A stretch of DNA of 64,000 nucleotides from Bacillus sp. J37 (lineage in GTDB: Bacteria; Bacillota; Bacilli; Bacillales; Bacillaceae). Below are positions 6,706 to 31,731 of this stretch, piece by piece. Within the stretch, counting starts at the first letter, position 1; each line of letters opens with the position of its first letter. The notes beneath the pieces are model-generated. The model saw only the letters and a list, made by a program, of their open reading frames with translations. It was not told where the DNA came from and searched no databases. The DNA is taken from contig NZ_JAEK01000006.1 in assembly GCF_000518865.1 (NCBI RefSeq), positions 124,224 through 188,223 on the forward strand, written 5' to 3'. A program made the translations under genes and the position numbers.

Positions 6706-8085
6706 ATGGAAAAAATGGACCTTATCATTAAAAACGGAAATGTGGTATTACCCGCTGGTTTAGAACAACTTGATATAGGAATTAAAGATGGATTGATACA
6801 TATTCTTGGCAAGAATCTATTGAATGAATCTGAAGAAATATGGGATGCTGCAAATCAATACGTTTTTCCAGGTATGATTGATGTACATGTGCACTTTAGT
6901 GAGCCAGGAAGAGAGCATTGGGAAGGATTTCGCACTGGCTCACAGATGATGGCTGCCGGTGGTTGTACAACGTATTTCGATATGCCGTTAAATGGTATTC
7001 CTTCTACCGTAACTGAGGAGGCACTATCTAAAAAAGCGAACCTTGGCATTGAAAAATCTCTTGTGGATTTTAGTCTATGGGGAGGACTTGTTCCTGGGAA
7101 TGAAGGTGATCTGGAAGTTTTAGCGAAATCAGGAGTAATCGGGTTTAAAGCGTTTCTTTCAACAACAGGTAACAAGGAATTTGAAGCGGTGGATGATATC
7201 ACCTTATTAAATGGAATGAAACAGATTGCAAAGCTTGGTAAAGTCTTGGCTCTTCACTCTGAAAGTGCTGCAATGACCGATTGGCTCAAGGAACAAAAAG
7301 AAAAAGAAGGAAAGTGTACGGCGGATGATTATTTGGAAACACGTCCAATTATGGCTGAGGTGGAGGCTGTACAGCGGGCTATTTACTATTCTGAGATCAC
7401 AGGCTGTCCGCTTCATTTTGTTCACATAAGCTCAGCAGAAGCTATAAAGATCATTCAGCAAGCTAAAGCAAGAGGGTTAAATATAACAGTTGAAACTTGT
7501 CCGCATTATCTGCTTTTTAACCATCAAGATTTAAGAAAAAGAGGAACGGTCGCTAAATGTGCACCTCCTCTTCGTGAAAAAGATGAACAGGAAAAATTAG
7601 TTAACCTCTTAATCAATCAAAAATTCGATATGATCTCGTCTGATCATTCACCATGTCCTTATGAATTAAAAGATCCTAAGGTTCATAATTTATTCCAAGC
7701 GTGGGGAGGGATTAGTGGCGGTCAGTTTACTCTACTATCGATAATTGAGTTAGCTGTAAAATACGAAATTCCTTTTGAATCAGTTGCAAAATGGACAGCG
7801 CAAAATCCAGCTAAGCGATTTGGGATATCAGATCGAAAAGGTCAAATAAAAGAAGGGAAAGACGCAGATTTTGCTATTGTCACTTTTGATAAATCGTATA
7901 CTGTTACAGAAGATAATTTTTATGCAAAACATAAGGAGAGTCTTTATTTAGGTCATACATTTCCATGTGAAATAACCGGAACAATTAATAGAGGGAATGT
8001 TGTCTATGAGAATGGTAGGGTAGTGGGTGGTACTCCGCATGGATGTTGGGTGAAACCGGTTGTGACAGAAATAGTAAGCAATTAG
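6706..8085 (+). CDS. pucH: Allantoinase
   Basis: Zinc amidohydrolase opening the allantoin ring to allantoate. The metal motif HVHFSEPGR, the carbamylated-lysine segment GFKAF, later histidines in LALHSES and HFVHISS, and the aspartate in SSDHSPC are all present in order. AAGGCTTYFDMPLN is the usual allantoinase signature. The length, 459 aa, fits AllB/PucH rather than dihydropyrimidinase. ACGGGAG precedes the ATG. Together with the upstream amidohydrolase and aminotransferase it gives a full allantoin to oxalurate route; uricase genes are not in the window. Confidence 0.92.
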   Translation: MEKMDLIIKNGNVVLPAGLEQLDIGIKDGLIHILGKNLLNESEEIWDAANQYVFPGMIDVHVHFSEPGREHWEGFRTGSQMMAAGGCTTYFDMPLNGIPSTVTEEALSKKANLGIEKSLVDFSLWGGLVPGNEGDLEVLAKSGVIGFKAFLSTTGNKEFEAVDDITLLNGMKQIAKLGKVLALHSESAAMTDWLKEQKEKEGKCTADDYLETRPIMAEVEAVQRAIYYSEITGCPLHFVHISSAEAIKIIQQAKARGLNITVETCPHYLLFNHQDLRKRGTVAKCAPPLREKDEQEKLVNLLINQKFDMISSDHSPCPYELKDPKVHNLFQAWGGISGGQFTLLSIIELAVKYEIPFESVAKWTAQNPAKRFGISDRKGQIKEGKDADFAIVTFDKSYTVTEDNFYAKHKESLYLGHTFPCEITGTINRGNVVYENGRVVGGTPHGCWVKPVVTEIVSN

Positions 8086-21038: not shown

Positions 21039-21057
21039 AAATAAAAATCACAATGAA

Positions 21058-21306
21058 CGTATTTATAGAGGACTAGTATACGGTACCTTTTTTCACAGAG
21101 AGTGAAGTTTATAAGCTGAAAGACTTCATACTAAAAGCCGTTGAACCTACCTCTAGAGTCCTATGAAAACATAGGCGCATCCCTGGCGTTAAAAAGGGTA
21201 AAGTGGGATGTGAATGTATAGTACTTCATATCCAATCAAGGTGGTACCACGGAAGCTAAGCTCCTTTCGTCCTTATTTTATTAAGGATGATGGGAGCTTT
21301 TTTATT
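21058..21306 (+). ncRNA. T-box leader, proline-specific, of proBA
   Basis: Stem I closes GGACT (21070) with AGTCC (21157). It contains the AGAGAGTGAAG motif and a specifier loop GAACCTAC with the proline codon CCT at 21146-21148. The T-box core AAGGTGGTACCACG (21238-21251) and the terminator AAGCTCC/GGAGCTT with TCGTCC in the side strand follow, ending in six T. Uncharged tRNA-Pro should pair with the specifier and the T-box loop and allow readthrough into proBA. Confidence 0.92.
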
Positions 21307-21357: not shown

Positions 21358-21536
21358 ATCAAGCTCCAGCGCCTAGCCTTAGATCGTACAGGATGTGCAA
21401 GTGCAGTCGGTGCGACAGAACGTCGCGATTTTAGACTGCCTCTAGGGTCTAACCACAAATGAATTGAAGACAAAGAACGCCTTCTATTCATTTGCGTCTT
21501 ATTTGCCCGAGGCTGCTCAAGGCGCTTGCGCTTTTG
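21358..21536. repeat. Dispersed Bacillus intergenic repeat, full copy
   Basis: Begins ATCAAGCTCCAGCGCCTAGC and ends CTCAAGGCGCTTGCGCTTTT, with an inner hairpin AAATGAAT...ATTCATTT and a central CGGTGCGACAGAACGTCGCG. The same family occurs at 32.76 kb and 54.19 kb in shorter forms, and the sequence is familiar from other Bacillus intergenic regions. It lies between the T-box terminator and proB, so it is part of the proBA mRNA leader. Confidence 0.8.
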
Positions 21537-24547: not shown

Positions 24548-24847
24548 TATAATTTAGAAAGTTACAATGCTGGGTTAGGGCAGCGGTGGTACTCCGAGGC
24601 AGATCGGTGGTGGTGCCGTGTATATCACAAGAGATGAATTGGATACAATGATTGCTTTTGCTGCTTTGGTCGTTTCGATTATTGTCGCAACAAAAAACAG
24701 CGGGAATAATAAAAACGACTAGCCCACCCTGACATTTGGCGATGAGGGTAGTGGAGCTAGTCTGTGTTCTACTTGCCTCAGCCACCGCATCTTTACAATG
24801 CGGAGTAACTAAAGCTTATAAGGGCGGTTGGTGTTAGAGCACCAATC
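24548..24847 (+). ncRNA. Putative type I toxin transcript unit
   Basis: An extended -10 TGGTATAAT (TATAAT 24548-24553) precedes a 34-codon toxin-like gene. The 3' part is rich in hairpins: GACTAGC/GCTAGTC (24717-24762) and GGTTGGTG/CACCAATC (24826-24847). 5' segments GCGGTGG (24583) and TACTCCG (24590) are complementary to 3' segments CCACCGC (24782) and CGGAGTA (24801), which suggests 5'-3' fold-back of the mRNA as in type I toxins. No antitoxin promoter could be placed confidently on the minus strand. Confidence 0.5.
24618..24722 (+). CDS. Holin-like toxin, 34 aa
   Basis: GTG start after GGTGGTG gives MYITRDELDTMIAFAALVVS then IIVATKNSGNNKND. A short polar head, one hydrophobic helix (about residues 11-24) and a charged tail are the pattern of Firmicute putative holin-like toxins (YEALMLMIAF type, established family pattern). 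The gene is below usual annotation length. Flanking RNA secondary structure supports a type I toxin. Toxicity and antitoxin are inference. Confidence 0.62.
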   Translation: MYITRDELDTMIAFAALVVSIIVATKNSGNNKND

Positions 24848-25044: not shown

Positions 25045-26256
25045 ATGAGTAAGATGGTTGTGACAGGATATGGAATAAAAGCACCAAATACTGCAAATAT
25101 CGATCAATTTCTTCATCATTTAAAGAATGGAACTTGCTGTCTGGAGGTAGTAACAAATTTAAGTGGTAATCATAAATCCACCATTGTTGGTTTAATAGAC
25201 AATCGAACGTTGCAACCATCTAAAGATAAGCTTTATAAAAGATTACCCCGTACAGCTCTGTTAGGGGTAGCTGCAGGAAAGGAAGCACTAACTTATGCAA
25301 AATTAGGTAATACTAAAAAAAAGAAAGTCGGTGTATTTTTTGGTACTTCTGTTGGGAATATAGGTGATTACGATTTCCAAGAGGCTTTGTGGAATGCCAA
25401 TCAACATAATGAAAGAGAAATACCGATAACTTTTGGGCACATAGGAAACTATCATAGTATTACCTCGTCGATATCTTATTTTTTAGGTGGAAATGATGTC
25501 ACCAAGACAATTTCAACTGGATGTACATCAAGCCTGGAAGCTATTCAGGACGCAATTGTTTATTTGAAAAGCGGGTTAATTGATATAGCGATTGTTGGTG
25601 GAGTTGATAGCCCAATAAGCAAAGCAGCGTTTTATTCATTTTCCAAAACAAAGGTTCTGCCGATCAATCAGAGTTTAGAAGAGGGTGCTGTTCCTTTTCA
25701 ATCTAGTAGTAAAGGTTTTGCGATGGCTGAAGGAGCTGGAGTCATTGTATTGGAACGGGATTCTGATGCATTGCAAAGAGGCGCGTATATTTTCGGGGAA
25801 ATAGACAACATCGTGTCAAATAATGATGGTGTACATATCTATTCTTTAGATGCATCAGGTGATAAAATGATAAAGGCTTTAAGAGAAGCTGTTACTAATA
25901 GGGTACCTGATTATGTCAATAGCCAAGCTCTAGGCATTCAAATAAATGACAGAATTGAAAAAAAAGTCTCACAAGAATTGTTTAATCATACTGTGCCTTT
26001 TACATCAATAAAAAGTATGTTTGGCAATCCCTTTGGGGCTATTGGGATCATTCAGGTTATTTCATCTCTATTAAGTATTAATAATAGTTTTATACCGCCA
26101 ACTATTCGAACAGATAAAAGTGGGTATGAAGAGATGAACATTGTTATGGAACCAATTTTTAAACCAATAAACGAAGTAGCCATCACAAATCATGGATATG
26201 GCGGTAACAATGCTTCGGCATACATTAAAAGGTATATAAAGGAAGAGACAACGTGA
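25045..26256 (+). CDS. Beta-ketoacyl-synthase-like protein lacking catalytic histidines
   Basis: 403 residues with the thiolase/KAS II fold. Cys160 in ISTGCTSSLEAIQDA is the acyl nucleophile, Lys323 in SIKSMFGN is kept, and the GYGGNNAS glycine loop closes the protein. Of the usual two catalytic histidines, the first (AHGT motif) is replaced by GIQINDR (Asn301) and the second (KSxxGH) by Asn328. Normal malonyl decarboxylation is therefore doubtful. The gene overlaps a histidine kinase gene by GTGA, an unusual pairing, with no other fatty-acid or polyketide genes around. It could be an acyl carrier-binding or acyl-transfer protein tied to signalling; that is inference. Confidence 0.8.
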   Translation: MSKMVVTGYGIKAPNTANIDQFLHHLKNGTCCLEVVTNLSGNHKSTIVGLIDNRTLQPSKDKLYKRLPRTALLGVAAGKEALTYAKLGNTKKKKVGVFFGTSVGNIGDYDFQEALWNANQHNEREIPITFGHIGNYHSITSSISYFLGGNDVTKTISTGCTSSLEAIQDAIVYLKSGLIDIAIVGGVDSPISKAAFYSFSKTKVLPINQSLEEGAVPFQSSSKGFAMAEGAGVIVLERDSDALQRGAYIFGEIDNIVSNNDGVHIYSLDASGDKMIKALREAVTNRVPDYVNSQALGIQINDRIEKKVSQELFNHTVPFTSIKSMFGNPFGAIGIIQVISSLLSINNSFIPPTIRTDKSGYEEMNIVMEPIFKPINEVAITNHGYGGNNASAYIKRYIKEETT

Positions 26257-27692
26257 TAACGTCATTATTAATATTTACAATTGGATTGCTGCCATTAGTT
26301 CTAGCAGTGAATGTAACAAGGATATATAAAGGATCACAACTGGGAATAGCCTTATTGTTATTTATGTGTTCTGTTACATTGTGGCAAATGGATATCGGTG
26401 TTCTTTATTTAAAAGGGATTATCCCGGAGGAATGGATTTTGAATTTATTCCGTTTTTTTCGAATCGGCACAACTGGTGTGGTACCTGTTATATTCTATCT
26501 AATTTATCTTTTGCTTAACAAGCACACACCGAATATAAAAAATAAAACAGGATATAATTTTTTTCAATCTTTTTTTAAACTGAAAATATTTTGGGGTTTA
26601 GTTGTTTGGAGTGTGGGGATTTATGCAATTAACTGGACAAAATGGGGAATTGAAGGGCTAAGGGTTGTTCAAATTGCTGACCCAAATACTAGTCTTTATT
26701 TTCCTGATTACGGAGATTATCATTTTCTGTACCTTTTACACACTGGTACAGTACTTTTATTACTCATCATTGTCGTAATTATTTGTAGAGGGATTCAAAA
26801 TGCGTCCTTAAAAGCATTTTTAAGAACCTTTTCATATTGTTCCATGTTTTTATTACTAACTGGATTTTTGAACTTTATACCTGGCACAGGTGCAGTCATT
26901 AGCAGTATTGGGGTTATTATTTTTTCATCGAGTATTATTTTTTCTTTTGTGAAAATGAATAATATTGTTTCAATTAATTATAATTTATTGCAAGAGCGTC
27001 AGAAGAAGCTTGATTATATGGGAAATCTCTCGACAAGTCTCATTCACGAAGTGAAAAATAATATTCAAATAATAAAAGGTTATTCCAAGATGGTTGCTGA
27101 AACGGCAGGTTTACCAAAGCAAAGTGAACATCACGTGGGTATGATTCAATTAGGCACAAGTCAACTTGAAGAATTAACACACCACTACTCAGAATATATA
27201 AAAAAGAAAGCTGTTGAGTTTAATGATGCAGACTTAAATCAAATTATTCAAGAAGCGATTGATTTTACGGCAGAGTTAAGAAAAGAGAAGCAAATTGATA
27301 TTTGCTTTGAACAAAAATATAAACCGCTTAAGGCATTTGCAAGCTCTACTTATTTAAAGCAGGTTTTTATTAATCTTATAAAAAATAGCTGTGAAGCAAT
27401 AGATGACGTTAATCCAAAGCGTAATATTGCAATAAAAACAGATATTGTTGCCGATAAGATTATTATTGATATTTCTGATAGTGGAATTGGGATTGTGAAA
27501 GATCGATGGGAAAGTATTTTTGATCCATTTATCTCTACAAAAGAATTAGGAATGGGAATCGGTCTCCCGTTTGTCAGGAAAGTGATTTTTGAACATCGCG
27601 GCGAAATTTTCGTTCTAGAAAGCAGTCAGAATGGAACGACATTTCGGGTAAGATTGCCACAATACGAATTTAGTGAATTGAGTCATACCTAA
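26253..27692 (+). CDS. Multi-pass membrane sensor histidine kinase
   Basis: 479 residues: about seven N-terminal membrane helices (1-235) without a large extracellular domain, then a cytoplasmic kinase. H-box SLIHEVKNNIQIIKGY (His265), N-box NLIKNSCEAI, G1 SDSGIGI, F-box FDPFISTK and G2 GMGIGLPF are intact, NtrB/KinB-like. GTG start overlaps the ketoacyl-synthase stop, so the proteins are co-produced. No response regulator is adjacent, so it acts on a distant regulator or a phosphorelay. Sensing within the membrane (lipid or acyl signal) fits the topology, but is inference. Confidence 0.85.
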   Translation: MITSLLIFTIGLLPLVLAVNVTRIYKGSQLGIALLLFMCSVTLWQMDIGVLYLKGIIPEEWILNLFRFFRIGTTGVVPVIFYLIYLLLNKHTPNIKNKTGYNFFQSFFKLKIFWGLVVWSVGIYAINWTKWGIEGLRVVQIADPNTSLYFPDYGDYHFLYLLHTGTVLLLLIIVVIICRGIQNASLKAFLRTFSYCSMFLLLTGFLNFIPGTGAVISSIGVIIFSSSIIFSFVKMNNIVSINYNLLQERQKKLDYMGNLSTSLIHEVKNNIQIIKGYSKMVAETAGLPKQSEHHVGMIQLGTSQLEELTHHYSEYIKKKAVEFNDADLNQIIQEAIDFTAELRKEKQIDICFEQKYKPLKAFASSTYLKQVFINLIKNSCEAIDDVNPKRNIAIKTDIVADKIIIDISDSGIGIVKDRWESIFDPFISTKELGMGIGLPFVRKVIFEHRGEIFVLESSQNGTTFRVRLPQYEFSELSHT

Positions 27693-27744: not shown

Positions 27745-27939
27745 ATGCAGGGAACGAAACGTGCTGATATAAAAATTGGTGCAAGTGTAAAAGTCGTACA
27801 AAAGCAGGACCAAAGATCAGGAAAATTAACAGAGGGCATAGTTTCAAAAATATTAACAAATTCAGCAGTACATCCTCATGGTATAAAGGTAATGCTAGAA
27901 ACGGGTATTGTAGGAAGGGTTAAAGAAATAAGTGAATGA
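27745..27939 (+). CDS. ywbE: YwbE family protein (DUF2196)
   Basis: 64-residue conserved protein; GTKRADIKIGASVKVVQKQD, LTEGIVSKILTNSAVHPHGI and KVMLETGIVGRVKEI are the YwbE signature. Small beta-rich fold; function unknown. AGGAAGTGGAAAGGT precedes the ATG. It follows the kinase gene by 52 bases. Confidence 0.88.
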   Translation: MQGTKRADIKIGASVKVVQKQDQRSGKLTEGIVSKILTNSAVHPHGIKVMLETGIVGRVKEISE

Positions 27940-27974
27940 TGAGAAGGAATTGAGAAAGACTTGATTCAAGTGAA

Positions 27975-29262: not shown

Positions 29263-29982
29263 ATGGAGGAAGTAACATTTTTTCCACAAGGAGATCATGC
29301 TGTGGCAATCGTATTTAACGATAAAATAAACAGAGAGACACATAGTCAAATCCGCCATTTCTCTTCCTATTTAATAAGAAATTCTTTTGATGGATTGGTT
29401 GAAGTGGTTCCGGGCTATACAAGCGTAACGGTTTATTATGATCCAATTAAAATGAAATCAGTATCACCATATGAAGAAGTTGTGACCATACTAAAAAAAC
29501 AACTTTCAAAACAAAATGAACGAAATGAATTTCCGTCAAATATTGTAACAATACCTGTTTGCTATGGAGGGAAATATGGTCCGGATTTATCATATGTTGC
29601 TGCATATCATAATCTTTCAGAACAAAAAGTGATAGAAATACATACTCATACAGAATATTTAGTTTATATGATAGGTTTTGCTCCGGGATTTCCTTATCTT
29701 GGCGGAATGTCGCAAAAAATCGCAACTCCACGTAAAGATACACCAAAAGTGAATATTCCTGCAGGTAGTATTGGGATCGGAGGCGAACAAACAGGAATAT
29801 ATCCTCTTGATAGCCCTGGAGGATGGCAATTAATCGGGCAAACCCCCATTAAACTTTTTGACCAGCATCAGGCACAGCCAAGTTTATTAAAAGCAGGAGA
29901 TATCGTTCGGTTTGTGCAAATCACACCCGAGAAGTTTGAACACTGGGAGAGAGGAGACATACATGTCGATAAAGGTAACTGA
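29263..29982 (+). CDS. pxpB: 5-oxoprolinase subunit B
   Basis: 239-residue KipI/PxpB protein. Signature IGFAPGFPYLGGM, TPRKDTPKVNIPAGS and LDSPGGWQLIGQTP, with IPVCYGG in the middle. PxpABC hydrolyses 5-oxoproline to glutamate with ATP. In B. subtilis KipI also inhibits sporulation kinase KinA (established), so a second role is possible. The end overlaps pxpC by 20 bases. GGAGGGTGTGAATAAAA precedes the ATG. Confidence 0.93.
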   Translation: MEEVTFFPQGDHAVAIVFNDKINRETHSQIRHFSSYLIRNSFDGLVEVVPGYTSVTVYYDPIKMKSVSPYEEVVTILKKQLSKQNERNEFPSNIVTIPVCYGGKYGPDLSYVAAYHNLSEQKVIEIHTHTEYLVYMIGFAPGFPYLGGMSQKIATPRKDTPKVNIPAGSIGIGGEQTGIYPLDSPGGWQLIGQTPIKLFDQHQAQPSLLKAGDIVRFVQITPEKFEHWERGDIHVDKGN

Positions 29983-30982
29983 GCCGGGGCTTTTAACAAC
30001 GATTCAAGATTTGGGGAGAAAAGGATTTCAGCAATATGGTGTGGTCGTTGGAGGAGTAATGGATGATACAGCAGCCAGGTTGGCCAATATCATGGTCGGA
30101 AACTCGGAAGATGAGGCTGTATTAGAGTTAACGGTCATTGGACCAAGTCTTATATTCGAACAAGATTATCTCATTTCAATTTGTGGTGCAGATTTATCAG
30201 CAAAAATTGATAATATACGAGTACCAATATGGAGACCCCTGCTTGTGAAAAAAGGAAGCTGTTTAACATTTGGTCGTCCCCAAAAGGGATGCCGCAGTTA
30301 TGTTGCAGTTGCAGGTGGATTTGATGTTCCGATGGTTATGAATAGCAGGAGTACATATATTAGAGGCAAATTAGGTGGGATACATGGCAGGGCATTGATA
30401 GAAGGAGATCGTCTTAACCATAGAAAGCAAGAAAGTTTATTCGCACAGGCCTTAATTGGATCACTTAGAAGAGAAGAGCATTCAACTCCTTTTCAATCTG
30501 TCAATTGGACGATTCCTACTCATATGAGATCTACCAATCACAAAAATCCAACTGTGAGAATCATAAAAGGTCCACAATTTTCAATGTTTACATCAATATC
30601 TCAAGAAGAGTTTCTAACGGAGACTTACAAAGTTACACCACAATCAGATCGAATGGGTTATCGATTATCAGGAGCAAAACTTAATGTTTCATCACAACAT
30701 AACCTTCTCTCTGAGGCTGTGCCAATGGGAACAATTCAGGTGCCGAATGATGGGCAACCGATTGTTCTAATGTCTGATCACCAGACAATTGGCGGTTATC
30801 CTAAAATCGGGTATGTCATAAGTGTGGATTTACCTTTGATGTCACAGGTGATGCCGGGTGGTCTCGTTAGGTTTAAGGAAGTCTCAGTATTAGAGGCTCA
30901 GCATTTAATTTTACAAAGAGAAAAAGAGATTAAGCAGTTAAAAATAGGAATAGCCTTAGCTATAAGGAGGTCTAATAAATGA
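29963..30982 (+). CDS. pxpC: 5-oxoprolinase subunit C
   Basis: 339-residue KipA/PxpC protein (biotin-dependent carboxyltransferase-like domain): [45 protein letters not shown] and [18 protein letters not shown] are typical. An ATG after GAGAGGAGACATAC lies inside the pxpB end; 17 upstream codons in the same frame are not counted. It overlaps pxpA by ATGA. Confidence 0.93.
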
Positions 30983-31731
30983 AAATAGATATAAATTGTG
31001 ATATGGGTGAAAGCTTTGGAGCCTATAAAATAGGCGTGGATGAAGAAATTATTCATTTTATAAGTTCAGCAAATATTGCCTGTGGTTTTCATGCAGGTGA
31101 TCCAGCAACAATGAGAAAAACAGTGAAACTGGCACAAAAACATTCTGTTAAAATAGGAGCACATCCCGGCTTTGAAGATGTAAAAGGATTCGGAAGACGA
31201 AATATTTCGATTTCACCCGAGGAGGCATTTGACTTAGTCGTGTATCAGATTGGTGCACTATCAGGTTTTGTTACGGTAGAGGGTGGGATGTTACATCATG
31301 TGAAACCACATGGTGCTCTTTACAATATGGCGGCTCTAGATAGAAAGCTTGCCGAGGCGATAGCAGAGGCAGTATATAAAGTAAATCCAGAGCTGATTTT
31401 ATACGGACTTTCTGGAAGTGAATTAATTAGAGCAGGTGAAAAACTAGGATTACGAACAGCGAGTGAGGTATTTGCAGATCGAACATATCAAAAAAACGGA
31501 CTGCTGACACCCCGTGTAGAAAAAAATGCATTAATTAAAAAAGATGAATTGGCTATGAAACAGGTTTTAACCATGGTTCTTGAGCAAAAAGTAATTGCTG
31601 CAAATGGAGAAAAAGTATCGATAAAGGCAGATACGATTTGTATTCATGGAGATGGTGAATATGCTGCTTCATTTGCCCGATTGATATACAATACTCTTCA
31701 GGAAAACGGTGTTCAGATAAAGGGAGTATAA
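30979..31731 (+). CDS. pxpA: 5-oxoprolinase subunit A
   Basis: 250-residue YcsF/LamB family subunit: [12 protein letters not shown] at the N terminus, [39 protein letters not shown] and [16 protein letters not shown] ribosome site within the end of pxpC. Gene order B-C-A differs from the B. subtilis ycsFG-kipIA order, where ycsF precedes. Completes the three-subunit ATP-dependent 5-oxoprolinase. Confidence 0.94.

Follow-up and report, generated by a model that had tools for sequence, protein, structure and literature searches.

A ketosynthase-like gene coupled to a seven-helix sensor kinase gene in Bacillus sp. J37: a possible acyl-linked signalling module

The window analysed here, the whole stretch of 64,000 nucleotides from Bacillus sp. 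J37 (contig NZ_JAEK01000006.1), carries a gene for a ketosynthase-like protein (KS) that overlaps the gene for a seven-helix (7TM) sensor histidine kinase, and the gene order recurs in relatives: across 397 genomes of the order, a 7TM-module gene lies directly downstream, on the same strand, of 31 of the 34 KS matches, that is, of 31 of the 33 that belong to the family. We consider it very probable that KS and receptor act in one pathway. Our best reading of how they do so, which we hold only tentatively, is that a non-condensing KS supplies an acyl-derived ligand to the co-encoded receptor. The layout suggests an unrecognised route by which acyl (fatty-acid-like) chemistry may be turned into a signal in many Bacillus-related bacteria, with a two-gene module as the link between primary metabolism of lipids or acyl groups and the circuits by which cells make decisions.

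The gene pair, its proteins and its surroundings

A sequence-only reading of this DNA had described a ketoacyl-synthase-like gene joined by a GTGA overlap to the gene of a seven-span sensor kinase, with neither a response regulator nor other lipid genes adjoining, and the window's open reading frames (Table 1), together with the domain searches, bear out each part of this description. The KS-like frame opens with ATG and the kinase frame with GTG. Both Pfam domains of the ketosynthase fold score above cut-off in the KS (PF00109, E 1.9e-32, 113.3 bits; PF02801, E 4.2e-14, 53 bits), its identity to FabF / KAS II (TIGR03150) is about 28-31% over nearly the full length, and the label given in two annotated relatives is only 'beta-ketoacyl synthase N-terminal-like domain-containing protein'. 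The nearest named relatives by KS identity are Metabacillus halosaccharovorans (96%) and M. niabensis (95%). An AlphaFold model of the KS from a six-sequence input had a mean pLDDT of 32.5 and was not used.

Table 1. Features of the KS-receptor gene pair, in window coordinates
Feature	Position	Strand	Basis or remark
KS-like protein, 403 aa, FabF-like fold family, predicted non-condensing	25045..26256	+	PF00109/PF02801; best curated NCBIfam match fabF equivalog, 197.6 bits against a cut-off of 493.75
Cys160 codon, nucleophile (FabF Cys163 position)	25522..25524	+	C in 59/59 family members
Gln294 codon, in place of first catalytic His (FabF His303)	25924..25926	+	4ls5 alignment; Q in 59/59
Lys323 codon, active-site Lys kept	26011..26013	+	K in 59/59
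Asn328 codon, in place of second catalytic His (FabF His340)	26026..26028	+	59 KS: H 44, N 14, Q 1
GTGA overlap, 4 nt	26253..26256	+	kinase start GTG and KS stop TGA
7TM sensor histidine kinase, 479 aa	26253..27692	+	ORF, HATPase_c domain, AlphaFold model
7TM input module, residues 1-243	26253..26981	+	alignment A2, genome search, AlphaFold model
Helix 4-helix 5 loop, predicted beta hairpin, conserved YFPxYG motif	26637..26720	+	A2 alignment and model
His265 codon, predicted phosphoacceptor (SLIHEVKNN)	27045..27047	+	motif
HATPase_c domain, residues 366-470	27348..27662	+	Pfam

The active-site positions were read from an alignment to the solved FabF 4ls5; the catalytic residues of FabF are Cys163, His303 and His340 according to PMC7138838. 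The FabF motif NAHGTST reads NSQALGI in the window KS, and SMTGH reads SMFGN; on the KS tree, Asn at the latter site is seen only in the clade that the window KS forms with its kin. The family stands apart in the order-wide search, with scores of 404-616 bits against 246 for the next match among those listed, which is a real fusion of a KS with a chain-length-factor-like half and has an intact HGTGT motif; the two most divergent members, from outside that search, score 316 and 344 bits. Between near relatives the KS evolves with a dN/dS of about 0.12, a sign of purifying selection (against L044 the value is saturated and not computable). In chain-length factors (KS beta) the active-site Cys is replaced by Gln, a hallmark absent from all 59 members.

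With Cys and Lys kept and Gln in place of the first His throughout the family, acyl loading on the Cys is plausible and decarboxylative condensation is not expected, as judged from the residues. Acyl loading is compatible with a missing first His because, as reported in PMC11720392, changing His293 of the mammalian fatty-acid synthase to Ala left rates undiminished and even raised them; the same text describes as controversial the part that this His plays in deprotonating the Cys, with reference to in silico work that requires it. A literature search with subscription papers and preprints outside its scope returned nothing on His mutants of E. coli FabB.

The kinase has the hallmarks of a sensor histidine kinase, namely the phosphoacceptor His, the N-box and HATPase_c (E 7.7e-18), with the H-box (IHEVKN) and the N-box (NLIKNS) identified by pattern search; HisKA (PF00512) is sub-threshold (E 0.095). 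Its AlphaFold model places seven long helices within the input module, of which the loop between helices 4 and 5 is predicted, from an inferred topology, to be extracytoplasmic. Pfam gave no match at E 0.1 on the first ~240 residues, and among 14 receptor proteins scanned no Pfam model scored above its cut-off on the module, where two relatives alone showed matches, all of them sub-threshold (TgpA_N, SK_channel, DUF3149). The known 7TM family HisKA_7TM (PF16927) was not matched by the window kinase (E 0.1), by seven relatives (E 0.01) or by six more (E 0.5); the genome's only match to it lies elsewhere, on contig C4, and a profile comparison with hhalign gave a probability of 10.9 over 161 columns. 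The predicted fold may resemble that of class C GPCRs, which we treat as a lead only; a fold search of a viral library returned kinase matches first, followed by weak ones to 7TM proteins (E 0.018 or worse), several of them to GPCR-annotated viral proteins, and is uninformative on this point. The kinase is likewise under purifying selection (dN/dS 0.08-0.11 between near relatives).

The window encodes no acceptor, product, exporter or second-enzyme gene beside the pair. On the 5' side lie what we take, from their sequences, to be proBA-type genes and a short toxin-like ORF, and on the 3' side presumably a YwbE-like ORF, a guaC-like gene on the opposite strand and 5-oxoprolinase-type genes. A T-box leader (21053-21277, +) stands ahead of the proBA-type genes, and a Bacillaceae-1 RNA was found at 21385-21449 (-). 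Between the proBA-type genes and the KS, positions 24575-24820 hold a short membrane-peptide ORF, presumably of the type I toxin kind, with a structured-looking region behind it; an opposite-strand ORF from the same stretch recurs in L043 and L064. The 64-aa ORF directly 3' of the kinase (27746-27940), which we assume to be the YwbE-like one, is kept in L039, L043 and L064. These three syntenic relatives also share genes at 29263-31731, about 1.6 kb downstream of the kinase, which we take to be kipI/kipA/pxpA-like. KipI is an inhibitor of the sporulation kinase KinA. PADLOC gave no defence-system match at E 0.001.

Joint occurrence of ketosynthase and receptor

Profiles built from 14 KS (A1) and from 19 seven-helix modules (A2) were searched in the 397 genomes, with at most four KS candidates (E 1e-70) and six 7TM candidates (E 1e-15) taken per genome, so that absence from the counts is not proof of absence. 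The 34 KS matches fall in 32 genomes, one of them (G119) outside the family. When the seven matches that had served as A1 seeds were removed, 25 of the 26 remaining family KS were still paired, and the two unpaired members of the full set (G133 and G390) are orphans whose genomes both hold a 7TM protein elsewhere. A 7TM protein is present in all 31 genomes with a family KS, against 34 of the 366 without one (Fisher P 2.5e-28, kinship ignored). In every pair found the KS gene comes first, on the same strand; the spacing in 47 pairs with a 7TM protein runs from -53 to +173 nt with ORF starts as called here, and the exact 4-nt overlap is local to the window rather than general among them, so it does not establish the near-equal synthesis that the sequence-only reading derived from it. 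The neighbourhood search for conserved KS-kinase pairs, which the sequence-only reading had put forward as a check, was therefore positive, and the result is wider than foreseen, with PAS-kinase and GGDEF-EAL outputs among the partners as well.

Beyond the order, a class-wide search found a KS match in 17 of 250 genomes, and the 15 new loci read there comprised five with a 7TM protein, six with a soluble-looking kinase and four orphans; a phylum-wide search matched only two of 249 genomes, both from the window's own class. Altogether, among the 59 KS examined, which are not a random sample, 47 stand before a 7TM protein, six before a soluble-looking kinase and six alone. Four sequences had been dropped before this count: the G119 match (locus L160), in which the KS is fused to a chain-length-factor-like half within a type II polyketide-like cluster; a second KS of L146, which proved to be an ordinary FabF; the broken KS of L051; and the KS of L055, which belongs to a type II ketosynthase cluster of the strain's own genome (contig C93). 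This last cluster presumably comprises a KS, a chain-length-factor-like protein, a reductase, a carrier protein, a thioesterase-like protein and parts of an ABC transporter. In a control set of 17 FabF-type loci, tblastn (E 1e-3) found neither of two kinase catalytic regions within 1.5 kb of any locus.

Purifying selection on both genes and the conservation of the pair place the observed pairing beyond chance. The distances among KS and among their 7TM partners are strongly correlated (Mantel r 0.89 for 45 of the 47 pairs, the two most divergent being left out, with none of 2000 permutations as high), a correlation that could come from shared species history alone. Distant loci differ in the genes that surround the pair. 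A search of a plasmid collection placed two pairs on plasmids typed as non-mobilizable, NZ_CP033050.1 of Virgibacillus halodenitrificans and CP128836.1 of Rossellomorea sp. AcN35-11.

The output behind the 7TM module is exchanged among relatives, being a kinase without PAS, a PAS-HisKA-HATPase kinase or a PAS-GGDEF-EAL protein (Pfam on seven relatives and motif patterns; Pfam domains were checked for 14 partners or kin in all). Typed by length, the 47 7TM partners comprise 20 kinases, 15 GGDEF-EAL proteins and 12 PAS-kinases. GGDEF-EAL proteins provide a c-di-GMP output, and all 15 have a KS, no lone one being seen on the 7TM tree. The six soluble-looking kinases that follow a KS outside the order (L207, L208, L209, L211, L212 and L213) give no match to the 7TM profile at E 1e-3 and carry instead a distinct N-terminal domain of ~160 aa, for which there was no convincing match in Pfam (three of the six), NCBIfam or PDB; NCBIfam on five of these domains gave only sub-cut-off matches, the best being flavodoxin (E 0.001) and FadR (E 0.008). 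A fatty-acid-binding non-heme globin domain, considered as a candidate, gained no support, neither PDB sequences nor, for three of the six, Pfam giving a match of this kind. On the Rossellomorea plasmid (L219), a stand-alone receiver gene (7639-7998) overlaps by 4 nt the kinase gene that lies behind the KS, and this receiver is a candidate partner regulator of the KS-receptor system. This locus hints, by analogy with the sporulation phosphorelay, that a single-domain receiver may carry the output of the kinase type.

Dependence in occurrence is one-sided, in that the KS goes along with the receptor and not the reverse. An intact KS neighbour is missing for 46 of the 77 7TM matches in the 397 genomes, a count in which two matches are pieces of one broken gene (G118) and G081 is entered as KS-less though a broken KS adjoins it. 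The 7TM tree, with 87 rows (46 with KS, 40 without, one with a broken KS; L067, L188 and L219 left out), requires at least 20 changes in KS presence, counted without distinguishing gains from losses; well-supported branches force 14 of these changes. Before intact 7TM kinases the KS is broken in L051, absent in L064 and reduced to a 27-residue remnant in L173, and the debris at L051 and L173 shows that loss is at least part of this history. The closest KS-less kinase (G003) shares 87% identity and the same surrounding gene order with the window kinase and is under purifying selection (dN/dS 0.087). The sequence-only reading had named kinase function independent of the synthase as evidence against its proposal, and this holds by half: the 46 of 77 receptors without KS and the many changes on the tree indicate that the receptor works without KS in many species, and these receptors together with the selection on G003 indicate that the kinase can do without a neighbouring KS.

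How the pair may work

The earlier proposal of an acyl signal made or bound by the pair agrees with the residues kept (Cys, Lys) and lost (His). We picture KS and receptor as one functional signalling module, in which Cys160 of the KS would take up an acyl group, with acyl-ACP or acyl-CoA as the donor; because Gln stands for the first His, and here Asn for the second, malonyl-ACP would not be decarboxylated, and the acyl group would be handed on, either to water or to some small acceptor. The 7TM module of the co-encoded receptor would then sense the resulting acyl product and drive the kinase here and the PAS-kinase or the GGDEF-EAL enzyme in relatives. We favour this ligand as the most economical reading, since one KS family goes with three outputs and with sensors of two unrelated types, while its acyl-loading site is kept and condensation is, as predicted, lost. 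Counted against it are the lack of any acceptor, product, exporter or second enzyme beside the pair, the many receptors without KS and the six of 59 KS with no kinase beside them. Peptide signals dominate in Bacilli; should the KS indeed make a ligand, the pair would represent an acyl-based communication system in this group.

The main rival, next after the ligand but in our view rather unlikely, is that the KS makes no signal at all and reads the acyl-ACP pool by remaining acylated at Cys160; it would bind directly to the receptor or the kinase, and its acyl state would set the output. This would account for a presumably condensation-dead enzyme in which Cys and Lys are nonetheless invariant, for a coupled two-gene layout with no other biosynthetic genes adjoining, for the correlated KS and 7TM distances and for the soluble-looking kinase partners, which would need no exported signal. 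However, no domain common to a 7TM-PAS-GGDEF-EAL protein and a soluble kinase was found, and direct binding would therefore call for several interfaces, which is why a small ligand appears simpler than one protein contact; the persistence of many receptors without KS also speaks against a charged co-sensor. Its more specific form, in which the KS is a sensor subunit charged on the catalytic Cys that reports the acyl-ACP pool by contact to a GPCR-like 7TM receptor, with the outputs exchanged freely, seems to us improbable. A charged co-sensor, if real, would be a new kind of system and would show how cells could read fatty-acid synthesis directly, and with the sensor subunit Bacilli would have an acyl-enzyme type of signal input that forms a class of its own, new to this group.

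It is also conceivable, with a low probability, that the KS tunes fatty-acid synthesis, for instance through a pairing with FabF or by occupying acyl-ACP, and that the 7TM module senses the altered membrane; FabF is after all the nearest family, and a 7TM module could read the state of the bilayer. Such tuning leaves unexplained both the soluble-looking kinase partners and the restriction of the KS, in the order searched, to genomes with this receptor. Least credible of all is that the KS merely rides in a small mobile two-gene module without acting on the receptor, a notion to which the differing neighbourhoods of distant loci, the two plasmid copies (non-mobilizable as typed), the frequent changes in KS presence, the remnant in L173 and the broken copy in L051 lend some colour. 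A passenger would hardly be under purifying selection with an invariant active-site set, nor would one and the same KS be tied to outputs of three types and to a second type of sensor.

Comparison with known systems

The sequence-only reading knew of no described system with this layout, and the literature search, with subscription papers and preprints again outside its scope, likewise found no description of the KS-receptor gene arrangement. Non-elongating ketosynthases (KS0) of polyketide synthases keep the Cys, lose the His and are expected to transacylate only, a likeness in residues; they are assembly-line domains, whereas the KS described here is free-standing and tied to a receptor. FabF / KAS II shares with the KS family the fold and the active-site Cys and Lys, and differs from it in the first His, in the absence of any fatty-acid gene beside the window KS and in the fabF cut-off, below which this KS falls far.

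Ketosynthase-like enzymes are known as dedicated signal makers from the photopyrone system PpyS/PluR (PMC4235431); there the receptor is a LuxR-type regulator in place of a membrane kinase, and PpyS makes a new molecule, whereas the KS family lacks the first catalytic His. Polyketides are also reported to regulate differentiation in Clostridium acetobutylicum (PMC5686105). As for the receptor, HisKA_7TM (PF16927) proteins and BtsS have seven helices with a kinase behind, as does the KS-paired receptor; PMC10653868 places the N-terminus of BtsS outside and reports its LytS-type input module with GGDEF proteins as well. The KS-paired receptor has no PF16927 match by hmmscan.

CqsA and LqsA, the synthases of the autoinducer pairs CqsA/CqsS and LqsA/LqsS, are PLP-dependent enzymes of another family with known signals, whereas the KS pair has the KS fold and no known signal; its receptor is of another 7TM family than CqsS and LqsS, and its outputs include c-di-GMP enzymes. 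What is shared is a signal-enzyme gene beside a membrane sensor kinase gene, the autoinducer synthase and sensor being adjacent and thought to be kept as one cassette (PMC3376566). Adjacency and joint retention of this kind are seen from the side of the KS (31 of 33), while 46 of 77 sensors stand without it. The layout of the pair resembles, by analogy, that of known synthase-sensor pairs, from which it differs in enzyme family, receptor and outputs.
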